A stretch of 64,000 nucleotides of DNA from NCBI GenBank assembly GCA_017443845.1, contig JAFSXX010000016.1, positions 1 through 64,000 of the forward strand, read 5' to 3'. The notes below the pieces were generated by a model, which was given only the letters and a program-made list of their open reading frames with translations, was not told the origin of the DNA and did no database searches. Position numbers and translations under genes: made by a program. Positions 31,170 through 39,126 of this stretch are shown piece by piece. Each line of letters opens with the position of its first letter. Positions within the stretch are counted from its first letter, which is position 1. The DNA comes from Bacteroidales bacterium. GTDB lineage: Bacteria > Bacteroidota > Bacteroidia > Bacteroidales > UBA932.

Positions 31170-31544
31170 ATGAACGTTCCCGCAAACCTCAAATACACAG
31201 AGGATCACGAATGGGTTAAAGTCGACGGCGACGTAGCTGTCGTAGGTATCACCGATTTCGCTCAGGGCGAGCTTGGTGACGTTGTATTTGTTGATGTCCA
31301 GACCGCTGGCGAAACCCTTGCAAAGGGCGAGACCTTCGGTACCATCGAGGCGGTCAAGACTGTCGCAGATGCATTTATGCCGGTTTCCGGTGAAGTCCTC
31401 GAAGTAAACGAAGCGCTTGACGGCGCTCCGGATCTGGTAAACTCAGATCCTTACGGAGACGGATGGATGATCAAGATCAAATTTTCCGACGCTTCGGAAT
31501 TTGATAGCCTCCTTACTGCCGAGCAGTACAAGGAAATAATCTGA
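31170..31544 (+). CDS. gcvH: glycine cleavage system H protein
   Basis: A 124-residue lipoyl carrier that shuttles the aminomethyl group between the P, T and L proteins of glycine cleavage. It has [21 protein letters not shown], the lipoylation lysine K63 in [20 protein letters not shown], and the family C-terminus ([19 protein letters not shown]). It stands alone; gcvP and gcvT are elsewhere. Its codons are like the neighbouring housekeeping genes. A decayed second copy of its 3' end lies at 33428-33491, on the far side of the hip module. Confidence 0.96.
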
Positions 31545-31625: not shown

Positions 31626-31670
31626 TTTGTGAAGGGGCGCTGCCCCTTAGACACCCCGCGGCAACGCTTT

Positions 31671-31758
31671 TACTGGGGCTCCGCCCCAAACCCCACCGCT
31701 CCGGCCTTGCCATTGCTCAGCCCTCCCTGCTCGGCCTCCGCTAGCGCCTGATGGCGCT
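31671..31758. repeat. dispersed GC-rich intergenic repeat, copy A
   Basis: About 88 bp that align with 42897-42982: both contain ACTGGGG, then GCCCCAAACCCC, CCGCT, GCTCGGCCT, CGCTAGC and CCTGATGG in the same order with scattered changes. It is rich in small palindromes (GGGGCTCCGCCCC) and continues to the right with more hairpins up to about 31800. The minus-strand open frame through it (31670-31933) is low-complexity and not a gene. 31800-31873 holds nothing else that I can name. Confidence 0.7.
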
Positions 31759-31873
31759 TGGCCCGGAAGCCAAGCTCCGCCGGGCCGCTAAGGCGGCCTT
31801 TATGCTGTTCCCCCAATGAATTTATGCCTTTCACAGTGCTGGGAATACCATATAAGATCTCAAAGAAATCTAT

Positions 31874-31893
31874 AATCACAATAGATTGTGATT
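31874..31893. promoter_or_regulatory. HipB operator O1
   Basis: A perfect 20-bp palindrome: half-sites AATCACAAT and ATTGTGATT around AG. It lies just upstream of the -33 element of the hip promoter. The near copy O2 at 31936-31953 supports an operator bound by the HipB-type repressor encoded downstream. Confidence 0.8.
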
Positions 31894-31896
31894 TTT

Positions 31897-31928
31897 CTTG
31901 TTTATTATGATTATTCTCTCTATTTTTG
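31897..31928 (+). promoter_or_regulatory. hipBST promoter between two operators
   Basis: -33 element CTTG (31897-31900), 20-bp spacer, perfect -7 TATTTTTG (31921-31928). It sits exactly between the operator palindromes O1 and O2. Confidence 0.72.
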
Positions 31929-31935
31929 TGCATAA

Positions 31936-31953
31936 ATCACAATAGGTTGTGAT
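31936..31953. promoter_or_regulatory. HipB operator O2
   Basis: ATCACAA-TAGG-TTGTGAT, the same half-sites as O1. It covers the expected transcription start of the hip operon and ends 3 bp before the hipB ATG. Its centre is 61 bp from that of O1, about six helical turns, so two repressor dimers would face the same side of the DNA. Confidence 0.8.
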
Positions 31954-31956
31954 ATT

Positions 31957-32184
31957 ATGGCAACAATAGGATCACATATCAAGAATCGTAGAAAGCACCT
32001 TAAGATTTCGCAGCGGCAATTAGCCGAGCTTTCCGGTGTCGGTATCAACACACTGACAAAAATCGAAAGGGGCGAGGCCAACCCTACCCTGTCCGTCCTG
32101 AACCGCATTCTTGACACTTTGGGACTGGAGCTTACAGTATCTGTAAAGACTTTGAACGATGAGGGAAGCAATTGTTTACAATAG
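31957..32184 (+). CDS. hipB: HipB-type helix-turn-helix antitoxin/repressor
   Basis: A 75-residue XRE-family DNA-binding protein: IGSHIKNRRKHLKISQRQLAELSGVGINTLTKIERG is the helix-turn-helix, followed by NPTLSVLNRILDTLGLEL as in HipB proteins. It is the first gene of a three-gene module and overlaps hipS by 26 bp. Two matching palindromes around its promoter are the likely binding sites, giving autoregulation. It is short compared with E. coli HipB but normal for Bacteroidota members. Confidence 0.88.
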   Translation: MATIGSHIKNRRKHLKISQRQLAELSGVGINTLTKIERGEANPTLSVLNRILDTLGLELTVSVKTLNDEGSNCLQ

Positions 32185-32494
32185 CGGCAGAGTTGCCGGC
32201 AGACTTCAGGAAATCAGTCCGTTCGAGTATTTCTTTCGTTATGACGATGAGTATTTTAAGGACACCTCGGCCCCTGCAATCAGTCTTACACTGCCTAAAA
32301 CCAGGCAAGAGTACAAGTCGGAACACTTGTTTCCGTTTTTTTGCAATATTCTGTCCGAAGGTCATAATCGTACGGTTCAGGCCCGCCTGCATAAACTGGA
32401 CGAGGATGATGACTTCGGACTTCTCCTTTCCACGGCTCAGACAGACACTCCTGGAGCCATAACCCTTAAACCCGTTCAAAATGATTCCATTTGA
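32159..32494 (+). CDS. hipS: HipS: free-standing HipA N-terminal subdomain, probable antitoxin
   Basis: A 111-residue protein that matches the N-subdomain 1 of HipA (couple_hipA type): VYNSGRVAGRL, FRYDDEYF, ISLTLPKTRQEY, LFPFFCNILSEGHNR, DDDFGLLLS, GAITLKP. In the described HipBST systems (E. coli O127:H6) this separate subunit is the main antitoxin that restrains the kinase HipT. It starts inside hipB (26-bp overlap) and its 3' end overlaps hipT by 14 bp in another frame. A sequencing frameshift in an ordinary hipA is possible, but both halves have their own ATG and together equal HipA length. Confidence 0.82.
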   Translation: MREAIVYNSGRVAGRLQEISPFEYFFRYDDEYFKDTSAPAISLTLPKTRQEYKSEHLFPFFCNILSEGHNRTVQARLHKLDEDDDFGLLLSTAQTDTPGAITLKPVQNDSI

Positions 32495-33431
32495 ATCATA
32501 TAGCCATTCTATCCTTAGGCACTTGACAGGAGGGATTGCGGTATCTCCCATCTTACCCTTTCGCAGTCACGAAGCCGACATAGCTAAATTTAATGAAAAC
32601 CGAGGAAGAATCTCGCTCTCTGGTGCGCAGAGTAAGTATTCCGTATGTATAAAGAATGGAAAATTCGAACTTACGGGCCCGGGAGAACCGGGGACTTTTA
32701 TTCTTAAACCGATGCTCTCCGATTTTGAATGCCGCGAAGACAGCCCGGCCAACGAACATCTCACGATGCAGATTGCCGCAAAGGTATTCCATATCGAGAC
32801 GGCTGCCAATCAGTTGTGCTTCTTCGAGAACGGAGACCCTGCATATATAACCCGACGATACGATATCGCCGGGGACGGCTCAAGAATCCAACAAGAAGAT
32901 TTCGCCTCTCTTGGAGGCATTTCTGTAGATAAGTATGGCAGGGATTACAAATATTCTGCTCTGAGCTATGAAGATATCGGGCACTTGATTATCAAATACA
33001 TTCCGGCTTGGAGAATTGAGATGGTGAAGTTCTTCGACCTCATCCTGTTTAACTTTCTGTTTTCAAACGGAGATGCTCACCTGAAGAACTTTTCGGTGTT
33101 GATGAATCCGGAGGGAGACTATCGTCTCGCCCCGGCCTACGACCTCATCGATACTCATATCCATCTGCCCGGGGACAGTATCTTCGCCCTTCAAAAAGGC
33201 TTATTTGCCGATGCCCGATCCTTCCCCTTGGGAATAGGAAATAGCGATTTCCTGGAGTTCGGCCTTTGCCTCGGCCTCCCAAAAAATATCGTGCACAAAG
33301 AGTTGGATCGCTTCTGTGCCGACTATCCGCTAATCGAAACAATGATCCAGGAATCCTATATGTCCGACACCACAAAACAGCGCTATTACGAACACTATCG
33401 TATGCGTCTGACTTCTTTTCTCAGGGTTTGA
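32481..33431 (+). CDS. hipT: HipT: HipA-like serine/threonine kinase toxin without N-subdomain
   Basis: A 316-residue HipA-fold kinase. Seen: Gly-rich loop ISLSGAQSKYSV with Ser45 and Ser47 (the SxS pattern that in E. coli HipT carries the autophosphorylation sites), the ATP-site lysine in TFILKP, catalytic SNGDAHLKNFS (Asp198, Asn203), and metal-binding LAPAYDLI (Asp221). The N-terminal subdomain of HipA is absent and is supplied by hipS upstream. E. coli HipT targets tryptophanyl-tRNA synthetase and HipA targets GltX; the target here is unknown. The stop coincides with the first bases of a gcvH fragment. Confidence 0.85.
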   Translation: MIPFESYSHSILRHLTGGIAVSPILPFRSHEADIAKFNENRGRISLSGAQSKYSVCIKNGKFELTGPGEPGTFILKPMLSDFECREDSPANEHLTMQIAAKVFHIETAANQLCFFENGDPAYITRRYDIAGDGSRIQQEDFASLGGISVDKYGRDYKYSALSYEDIGHLIIKYIPAWRIEMVKFFDLILFNFLFSNGDAHLKNFSVLMNPEGDYRLAPAYDLIDTHIHLPGDSIFALQKGLFADARSFPLGIGNSDFLEFGLCLGLPKNIVHKELDRFCADYPLIETMIQESYMSDTTKQRYYEHYRMRLTSFLRV

Positions 33432-33491
33432 CGGCGCTCCGGATCTGGTTAACACCGATCCTTTGATAGCCTCCTTACTGCCGAGCAGTAC
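33428..33491 (+). pseudogene. fragment of a second gcvH 3' end
   Basis: 33428-33463 aligns with gcvH 31417-31452 with three changes (a [11 protein letters not shown] version of [11 protein letters not shown]), and 33463-33491 is identical to 31501-31529. The 49 bases between them in gcvH are missing, which breaks the frame. After the match the remnant reads on to AAIARR and a stop rather than KEII, so it comes from a different gcvH allele, not a copy of the present one. It starts exactly at the hipT stop. Confidence 0.9.
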
Positions 33492-37110: not shown

Positions 37111-39126
37111 CTATCTTCCGAAATATACAAGCAGGACAGAGATGTCGGCTGGAGAAACTCCGCTGATGCGGGAGGCCTGCGCTATGGTGCGAGGACGGTA
37201 GCGGTCCAATTTGATGCGGCTCTCCATCGACAGGGCCGTGAGTTTCGAATAATCGAAGCCATCGGGAATCCGCAGGTCCTCCAGGCGTTTTATCTTATCC
37301 GCTATCCTCCTCTCCCTCTCGATATATCCTGCATATTTCACCGCTATCTCCGCCGCTTCGAGAACGGAATCCCGGATATCCTCTTCCGTCCTTTCAATGT
37401 CACGGCTACGGAAGTCCATGCAACCGGGAATCCACGGCAGCGAAAGCACCGCCTCCATCGACTCGTAATCCTCCGGATCGACATCCGCCGCAGCCTTCAC
37501 CTTCCCGCCCAGTTCCTCTTCGAATTGTTCCGCGGTTCCCCGTGGAACACTCCGCAGCAATCCGGCCAGCGAAACCTCGGGACGGGTAAGCAGCTCTCCC
37601 ATCCTTTTGGGGACCGGTATCTCCGCGGAACCGACAGAATCCAGATAAGGATTCACATCCTCCGGCTTGAGGGCCGACTGGCGGGCGAAATCGATGCTCT
37701 GCTGTGCCATCTCCCGCTTGCGGCACATATAATCGTACCTGAAATCATCGGCAAGACCTATCTGATGGGCCTTTTCGGTAAGCCTCTGGTCGGAATCGTC
37801 CTGCCTCAGCAGGATCCTGTACTCCGCCCTCGAAGTGAACATCCTGTAAGGCTCGTCCACACCTTTTGTTATCAGATCGTCGATGAGTACCCCGATATAA
37901 GCTTCGTCGCGGCCCAGGATGAAAGGCTCCTTGCCGGCAAGGGCAAGATGGGCGTTAATGCCCGCCATCAATCCCTGCGCGGCCGCTTCCTCATAGCCCG
38001 TAGTGCCGTTGACCTGGCCTGCGAGATAAAGCCCCTTTACGACTTTCGACTCGAGTGTGGCCTCGAGCTGCAGGGGATCGAAATAGTCATACTCGACGGC
38101 ATAAGCCGGACGGAATACCTTGACATCGGAGAATCCCTCTATGGCACGGAGAGCCTCCATCTGCACATTGAAAGGCAGCGAAGAGGAGAAACCCTGAAGA
38201 TAATACTCGTTTGTGTTCCACCCCTCCGGCTCGATGAAGAGCTGATGGGCGTCGCGGCCGGCGAAGGTATGGAGTTTGTCCTCGATCGAAGGGCAGTAAC
38301 GCGGCCCGATTCCTTTGATGCGGCCCGTAAAGAGCGGCGACTCGTCGAACCCGCTCTCGAGGATCGAATGAACCTCTTTGTTGGTATGAGCGATATAGCA
38401 CTCCTTCTGGACTCCGCTGCGCTGCACCGAGGAGAGCAGCGGAAGATATGAGAATTGCGAAGGGTTCTCATCCCCCTTCTGGATTTCGAAAGCGGAGAGA
38501 TCGAGGGAACGGATGTCGATGCGGGGCGGGGTTCCGGTCTTCATCCTGCCGCTCTTGATTCCGAGCGAGACGAGCTGGGAGGTCAGGCCGTATGAGGCCA
38601 TCTCTCCGATGCGCCCTCCGTCGGCACTCTCGCGGCCTATGAAAAGTTTCCCGTTCAGGAAGGTTCCGGCCGTCAGGATCACCGACTGAGCCTCGAATTC
38701 GGCGCCCATCGATACGCGTACGCCGGAAATTTTAGATTCTCGGAAGGTTATCGCAGTCACAAAATCCTGCCAAATATCTAAGTTACAGGTATTTTCGAGG
38801 ATATGACGCCAGTTCATCGAGAAGCGGGTCTTGTCGCACTGTGCGCGGGGGCTCCACATTGCCGGACCTTTCGACCGGTTGAGCATCCTGAACTGGATAG
38901 TGGAGGCATCGGTCACTATGCCGCTGAAACCTCCTAATGCATCTATCTCCCTGACAATCTGGCCTTTGGCAATGCCGCCCATAGCCGGGTTACACGACAT
39001 CTGGGCCGTCTTGCCCATATCCATCGTGACCAGCAGCACCTTCGATCCGAGGCGCGCCGCCGCCACTGCGGCTTCGCATCCGGCGTGACCGGCACCGACG
39101 ACGATTATGTCATACCTCCGCGCCAT
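37111..39126 (-). CDS. mnmG: tRNA uridine-5-carboxymethylaminomethyl modification enzyme MnmG
   Basis: A 671-residue FAD-binding enzyme that, with MnmE, modifies the wobble uridine of several tRNAs. The N-terminal dinucleotide-binding motif is [19 protein letters not shown], followed by the family signature [21 protein letters not shown] and a second signature region [20 protein letters not shown]. The C-terminal helical domain is complete ([20 protein letters not shown]). It overlaps ybeY by 17 bp and is probably co-transcribed with it. It converges on the LuxR-type regulator with a 27-bp gap. Confidence 0.97.

Follow-up and report, generated by a model that had tools for sequence, protein, structure and literature searches.

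A Bacteroidales HipBST module of three genes and the operator-like palindromes upstream of its hipB

The stretch of DNA analysed here, a window of 64,000 nucleotides from a Bacteroidales contig, very probably carries an intact, autoregulated tripartite HipBST toxin-antitoxin module of the active kinase type, for which we infer toxicity, neutralisation and HipB binding. With its genomic setting taken into account, it is most probably a mobile kinase toxin-antitoxin module under its own control. The module itself is unremarkable: its family has been described in Bacteroidota before. The part deserving specialist attention is the spacing of the operator-like sites upstream of hipB. In the published HipBST systems HipT is neutralised by HipS, augmented by HipB (PMC6581861, PMC8262856).

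Gene anatomy and genomic context

The module consists of three intact open reading frames on the plus strand, which overlap by 26 nt (hipB/hipS) and 14 nt (hipS/hipT). The following features were delineated:

31170-31544, plus strand: intact gcvH, left neighbour of the insert
31874-31893, no strand: operator-like palindrome 1 (AATCACAATAGATTGTGATT), direct repeat of the site at 31935 with 61-bp spacing, 91% over 22 nt
31898-31928, plus strand: putative Bacteroidetes-type promoter, TTG at 31898 and TATTTTTG at 31921-31928
31935-31954, no strand: operator-like palindrome 2 (AATCACAATAGGTTGTGATA), directly before the hipB start codon
31957-32184, plus strand: hipB, 75 aa HTH_3 protein, putative repressor and co-antitoxin
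32159-32494, plus strand: hipS, 111 aa HipA N-terminal-domain protein, putative antitoxin
32481-33431, plus strand: hipT, 316 aa HipA_C Ser/Thr kinase, putative toxin, Gly-rich loop S45-L-S47-G
33428-33491, plus strand: partial copy of the 3' end of gcvH that lacks 48 nt internally and abuts the hipT stop codon, probable insertion footprint

Pfam matches HTH_3 on hipB (E = 1.5e-15), Couple_hipA, the N-terminal domain of HipA, on hipS (E = 4.1e-19) and HipA_C on hipT (E = 1.4e-36), all three well beyond the Pfam cut-off, and NCBIfam couple_hipA matches hipS as well (E = 7e-25). Compared with the known HipS structures, the HipS protein is best matched by Legionella HipS and E. coli HipS (E = 9e-11 and 3e-9). 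Reading frames and domains bear out the original prediction that this Bacteroidales genome has a HipBST module made of three genes, with the N-terminal subdomain of HipA encoded by an overlapping gene of its own. The AT-richness proposed for the module is found in direction but is modest in size: its GC content is 47.1% versus 53.9% in the remaining window, which places it at the 3rd percentile among tiles of the same size.

In a sister genome (G031), whose gcvH product is 93% identical, gcvH and mnmG are only about 400 bp apart and no HipA_C gene was found. The alignment to this genome breaks at window position 31760 and resumes at 37118. The intervening 5.4-kb insert, absent from the sister, holds hipBST, a BspA-like LRR protein and a LuxR/TPR protein; as far as the two sequences tell, the difference may be an insertion here or a loss in the sister genome. 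The four nearest relatives of HipT have no gcvH or mnmG in the flanks retrieved, which reach 3 kb to either side. From its surroundings, the HipBST module appears to move. The interval between gcvH and mnmG also varies in contents and length across other members of the genus, and a GC-rich segment of about 100 nt (31664-31775) is a dispersed repeat with about a dozen further places in the genome at 79-88% identity.

The partial gcvH copy (33428-33491) derives by match from 31417-31529. Its first 36 nt are 97% identical to the gcvH of the sister and 92% to that of the window itself. That this copy abuts hipT prompted the idea of an integrase island targeting gcvH, which we rejected. The intact gcvH retains its native end and terminator, which counts against such an island, and no integrase was seen among the large open reading frames of the 5.4-kb insert. 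A scar of a single crossover or of a duplication is likelier; a search through 40 genomes of the genus turned up no such partial copy, only the normal gcvH. Two further ideas were discarded. The downstream copy does not provide a different C-terminus of GcvH (YAAIARR), as the letters past 33491 enter the 3' end of the neighbouring LRR gene, and a phage-borne module was set aside with a single weak HipA-family match in the phage collection.

For the conservation of the split, GTDB genomes were scanned with a profile built from six HipT proteins, and of the best 80 loci 79 could be scored. Among these close homologues, which are mutually related so that the counts are not independent, not one has the HipS domain fused to the kinase, and 75 have the order hipB-hipS-hipT; three have no detectable hipB and one is ordered hipS-hipT-hipB. 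The scored loci belong mainly to Bacteroidota, with a few in Akkermansia (Verrucomicrobiota), Acidobacteriota, Ignavibacteria (Ignavibacteriota) and Neomarinimicrobiota. The four nearest HipT relatives (63-80% identity) are encoded in metagenome assemblies of Bacteroidales, of which three or more have names that refer to ruminant samples. The same three genes are found on plasmids of Bacteroides thetaiotaomicron and Runella slithyformis.

Judged by this conservation, the hipS/hipT split is genuine. As hipS matches one end of HipA and hipT the other, and the host genome (an assembly of 57 contigs, 93% complete) also encodes two divergent fused HipA proteins (L002, L003), one could suspect a hipA gene broken by a frameshift or an assembly error, that is, a pseudogene. 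The original prediction had named relatives that all carry a fused gene as the finding that would speak for this; instead the split is kept in every scored homologue, across Bacteroidota, Acidobacteriota, Ignavibacteriota, Verrucomicrobiota and others. Moreover, the three-gene layout is repeated on annotated plasmid copies, and hipT has its own start codon and conserved residues. We therefore rule out a frameshifted hipA, and a broken gene of either origin is extremely improbable. A module that was acquired horizontally but is now stranded, decaying and no longer functional would fit the insert that the sister genome lacks, the gcvH scar at the hipT stop codon and the short N-terminus of HipT, which is missing about 14 residues (the CP[GS]TL segment) present in most homologues of its clade (clade A, see below). 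However, the four nearest relatives lack the same segment, the scar meets the coding sequence at the stop codon only, HipT ends at the same position as in its nearest relatives, and the three reading frames, both operator-like sites and all kinase residues are intact. We consider decay improbable. A role chiefly in defence against phages, instead of in persistence or stabilisation, would be in line with the mobile-looking context, with the proposal that toxin-antitoxin kinases are abortive-infection systems (PMC8262856) and with PADLOC matches of HipT (E = 1.7e-7) and HipS (E = 1.7e-5) to the candidate pair PDC-M03A/B. These matches are weak and partial, though, and no defence genes were seen among the immediate neighbours, so that we hold this role to be rather unlikely.

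Lineage of the kinase and the Trp65 position of HipS

The original prediction had correctly placed Ser45 and Ser47 of the SxS loop as well as Asp198, Asn203 and Asp221 in HipT. Across a 45-sequence HipT alignment G48, Q50, K52, D198, N203 and D221 are invariant. The AlphaFold model of HipT (pLDDT 92) finds Legionella HipT as its best PDB match (E = 2e-22, TM 0.83), followed by E. coli HipT (E = 4e-19) and then HipA. The profile scores are 177 bits for Legionella HipT, 111 bits for HipT of E. coli O127 and 50 bits for HipA.

In a maximum-likelihood tree of 52 kinases, whose deeper branching order is unsure owing to long HipA branches, three HipT groups each fall to one side of a branch. Clade A includes the window HipT; it comprises 32 rows, is composed mainly of Bacteroidota, and its sister is a protein from an Arcobacter plasmid (97/89). 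Clade B includes Legionella HipT (support 98/94), and the third group is formed by the E. coli and Aliivibrio HipT proteins (100/100). The window HipT is not grouped with HipT of E. coli O127, as clade A and the E. coli group are separately supported. Legionella HipT joins clade B and not clade A, although it is the top PDB match. We note some variants among these groups. The order is hipS-hipT-hipB in two clade-A loci (L088:1041-2533 and L131). On plasmid pCG103-32 of Aliivibrio fischeri (L198:258-2975), hipB and hipS precede two hipT-like kinase genes in tandem. Several of the clade-B hipT matches (L213, L214, L226 and others) contain an internal stop, which may mark a natural end or a broken gene, and clade-B HipT proteins (L009-L014) start with a zinc-knuckle-like CxxC...H...C motif (CLYCY...FH..C) which clade A does not have.

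The view that HipBST is described mainly from Proteobacteria does not hold. Homologues of the Legionella type are widely distributed in Bacteroidota (PMC10653801), and we found a split HipT in 49 of 198 sampled Bacteroidales genomes, about a quarter (E <= 1e-30, clade-B query); among the weakest of these 49 matches at least one is of clade A (G043). Split HipA modules on plasmids of Bacteroides, Parabacteroides and Runella belong to the same clade as the window module and, where inspected, have the same three-gene layout. They are annotated as 'HipA N-terminal domain-containing protein' and 'HipA domain-containing protein'. Their HipT proteins are 42-46% identical to the window HipT, and they differ from the window module in being plasmid-borne. 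We found no characterisation of these plasmid modules.

Of the characterised systems, HipBST of Legionella pneumophila (lpg2368-2370; PMC9325769, PMC10653801) is the nearest, both by profile score and by fold of the kinase. It shares the order B-S-T, a HipS without Trp65 and evenly spaced operators upstream of hipB, to which the candidate sites here correspond. The two kinases are nevertheless only about 28-30% identical and sit on different, supported branches. The loop serine is present at both positions here, whereas Legionella HipT has only one (S-V-Q). E. coli O127:H6 HipBST (clade III; PMC6581861, PMC10627512) likewise has three overlapping genes, a separate N-subdomain protein HipS, the SxS Gly-rich loop and the catalytic and Mg-binding residues, but its HipT is 24% identical in a structural alignment and lies on a separate branch of the tree. 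In E. coli, Trp65 of HipS wedges beneath the Gly-rich loop of HipT and is required for neutralisation (PMC10627512). Legionella HipS has Ile or Met in place of this Trp and does not rely on a Trp (PMC10653801). The window HipS reads LSEGHNR at this place, thus EGH and not EGW. Clade-A HipS proteins have EG, then mostly V, A, S, H or E, and then usually N; no Trp follows EG in any of the clade-A loci examined, while 28 of 31 clade-B HipS proteins have EGW. By its sequence, the window module has a HipT whose SxS loop resembles that of E. coli HipT, together with a HipS that lacks the Trp. With His in the place of the blocking Trp65, neutralisation by HipS probably runs through non-Trp contacts, as reported for Legionella HipS. 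The combination of an SxS loop with a plug-less HipS in clade A makes the current model of HipS inhibition testable.

The module might still work in the E. coli mode, with HipT phosphorylating the KMSKS loop of TrpS and HipS blocking it by a Trp plug. The SxS loop is common to E. coli HipT (S57/S59) and TrpS of the host genome has an AKMSKS loop. The KMSKS motif is, however, a general feature of class I synthetases and hence not specific. Further, HipT scores closer to Legionella HipT, whose toxicity is rescued neither by TrpS nor by GltX (PMC10653801), and for this reason TrpS, though possible as a target, is not favoured. The proposed likeness to E. coli HipT holds for the loop and the catalytic residues and is limited in the profile score, the tree branch and Trp65 of HipS. 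Because of these three differences neither the TrpS target nor the E. coli mode of neutralisation should be transferred to the window module, and we regard operation in the E. coli mode as unlikely.

Operator-like sites and the proposed mode of action

Upstream of hipB, two near-perfect palindromes flank a promoter-like sequence. The module start given in the original prediction, 31874, is the opening base of the upstream palindrome. We take the TTG...TATTTTTG arrangement at 31898-31928 to resemble the Bacteroidetes promoter consensus TTTG/TAnnTTTG, and the promoter is putative in function. In the four nearest relatives, whose genomic surroundings differ, both sites are kept at 61-62 bp.

The spacing extends to more distant relatives, in counts that are not independent since the promoters come from related loci. 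A scan with a tolerant version of the motif gives 46 of 75 promoters with two or more sites, where base shuffles lead one to expect about 1; in 44 of these 46 the sites are 60-63 bp apart. In a lag test free of any motif, in which 18 nt with at least 14 identical count as a self-match and dinucleotide shuffles are the control, 49 of 76 clade-A promoters have a self-match at lag 60-62 upstream of hipB; the shuffles give an expectation of 0.65 for this lag, and the other lag bins tested reach at most 2. The next clade-A peak is at lag 122, so some promoters have three sites. An operator scan with exact 7-nt arms finds pairs in only 4 of 76 promoters. At a protein identity of 41-52%, promoter DNA under no constraint would not be expected to stay alike. 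The conserved spacing of about 61 bp between operator-like sites is possibly new.

Legionella HipB binds evenly spaced operators of 18 nt that are separated by 53 bp, which makes 71 bp from start to start (PMC10653801). The copy of Legionella adelaidensis gives a lag of 71-72 in the same test, and clade B has peaks at 40-41 and 80-82 bp. The sites described here thus differ from those of Legionella in spacing (61 versus 71 bp) and also in sequence. That the spacings are near whole helical turns is suggestive only. The clade-specific spacing suggests selection on a DNA-bridging HipBST complex. We tentatively propose, as a reading that stands only just short of an even chance, to see in clade A an undescribed HipBST lineage, the third, which occurs in Bacteroidota and neighbours, restrains the kinase in a way of its own (no HipS Trp plug) and keeps the sites of its HipB-operator array about six helical turns (61 bp) apart. 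The spacing would then be fixed separately for each HipBST clade (40/80, 61 and 71 bp), always close to whole turns; a HipB-HipS-HipT complex that spans two operators could dictate it by its geometry.

We suggest that the autoregulated HipBST module probably works in the following way. By its domain and predicted fold, HipT is a Ser/Thr kinase of the HipA type that lacks the N-terminal subdomain. The detached subdomain, HipS, would bind HipT beside the Gly-rich loop and keep the kinase inactive. Free HipT would act on an essential protein, which by analogy may belong to the translation machinery, and its phosphorylation would arrest growth. The HTH protein HipB, either alone or within the HipBST complex, would bind the two palindromes that flank the promoter 61 bp apart and repress the operon. 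The HipBA system of E. coli K-12 shares the HipA fold, the HTH repressor and the flanking operators with the module described here and differs from it in that HipA is one polypeptide and HipB itself is the antitoxin.
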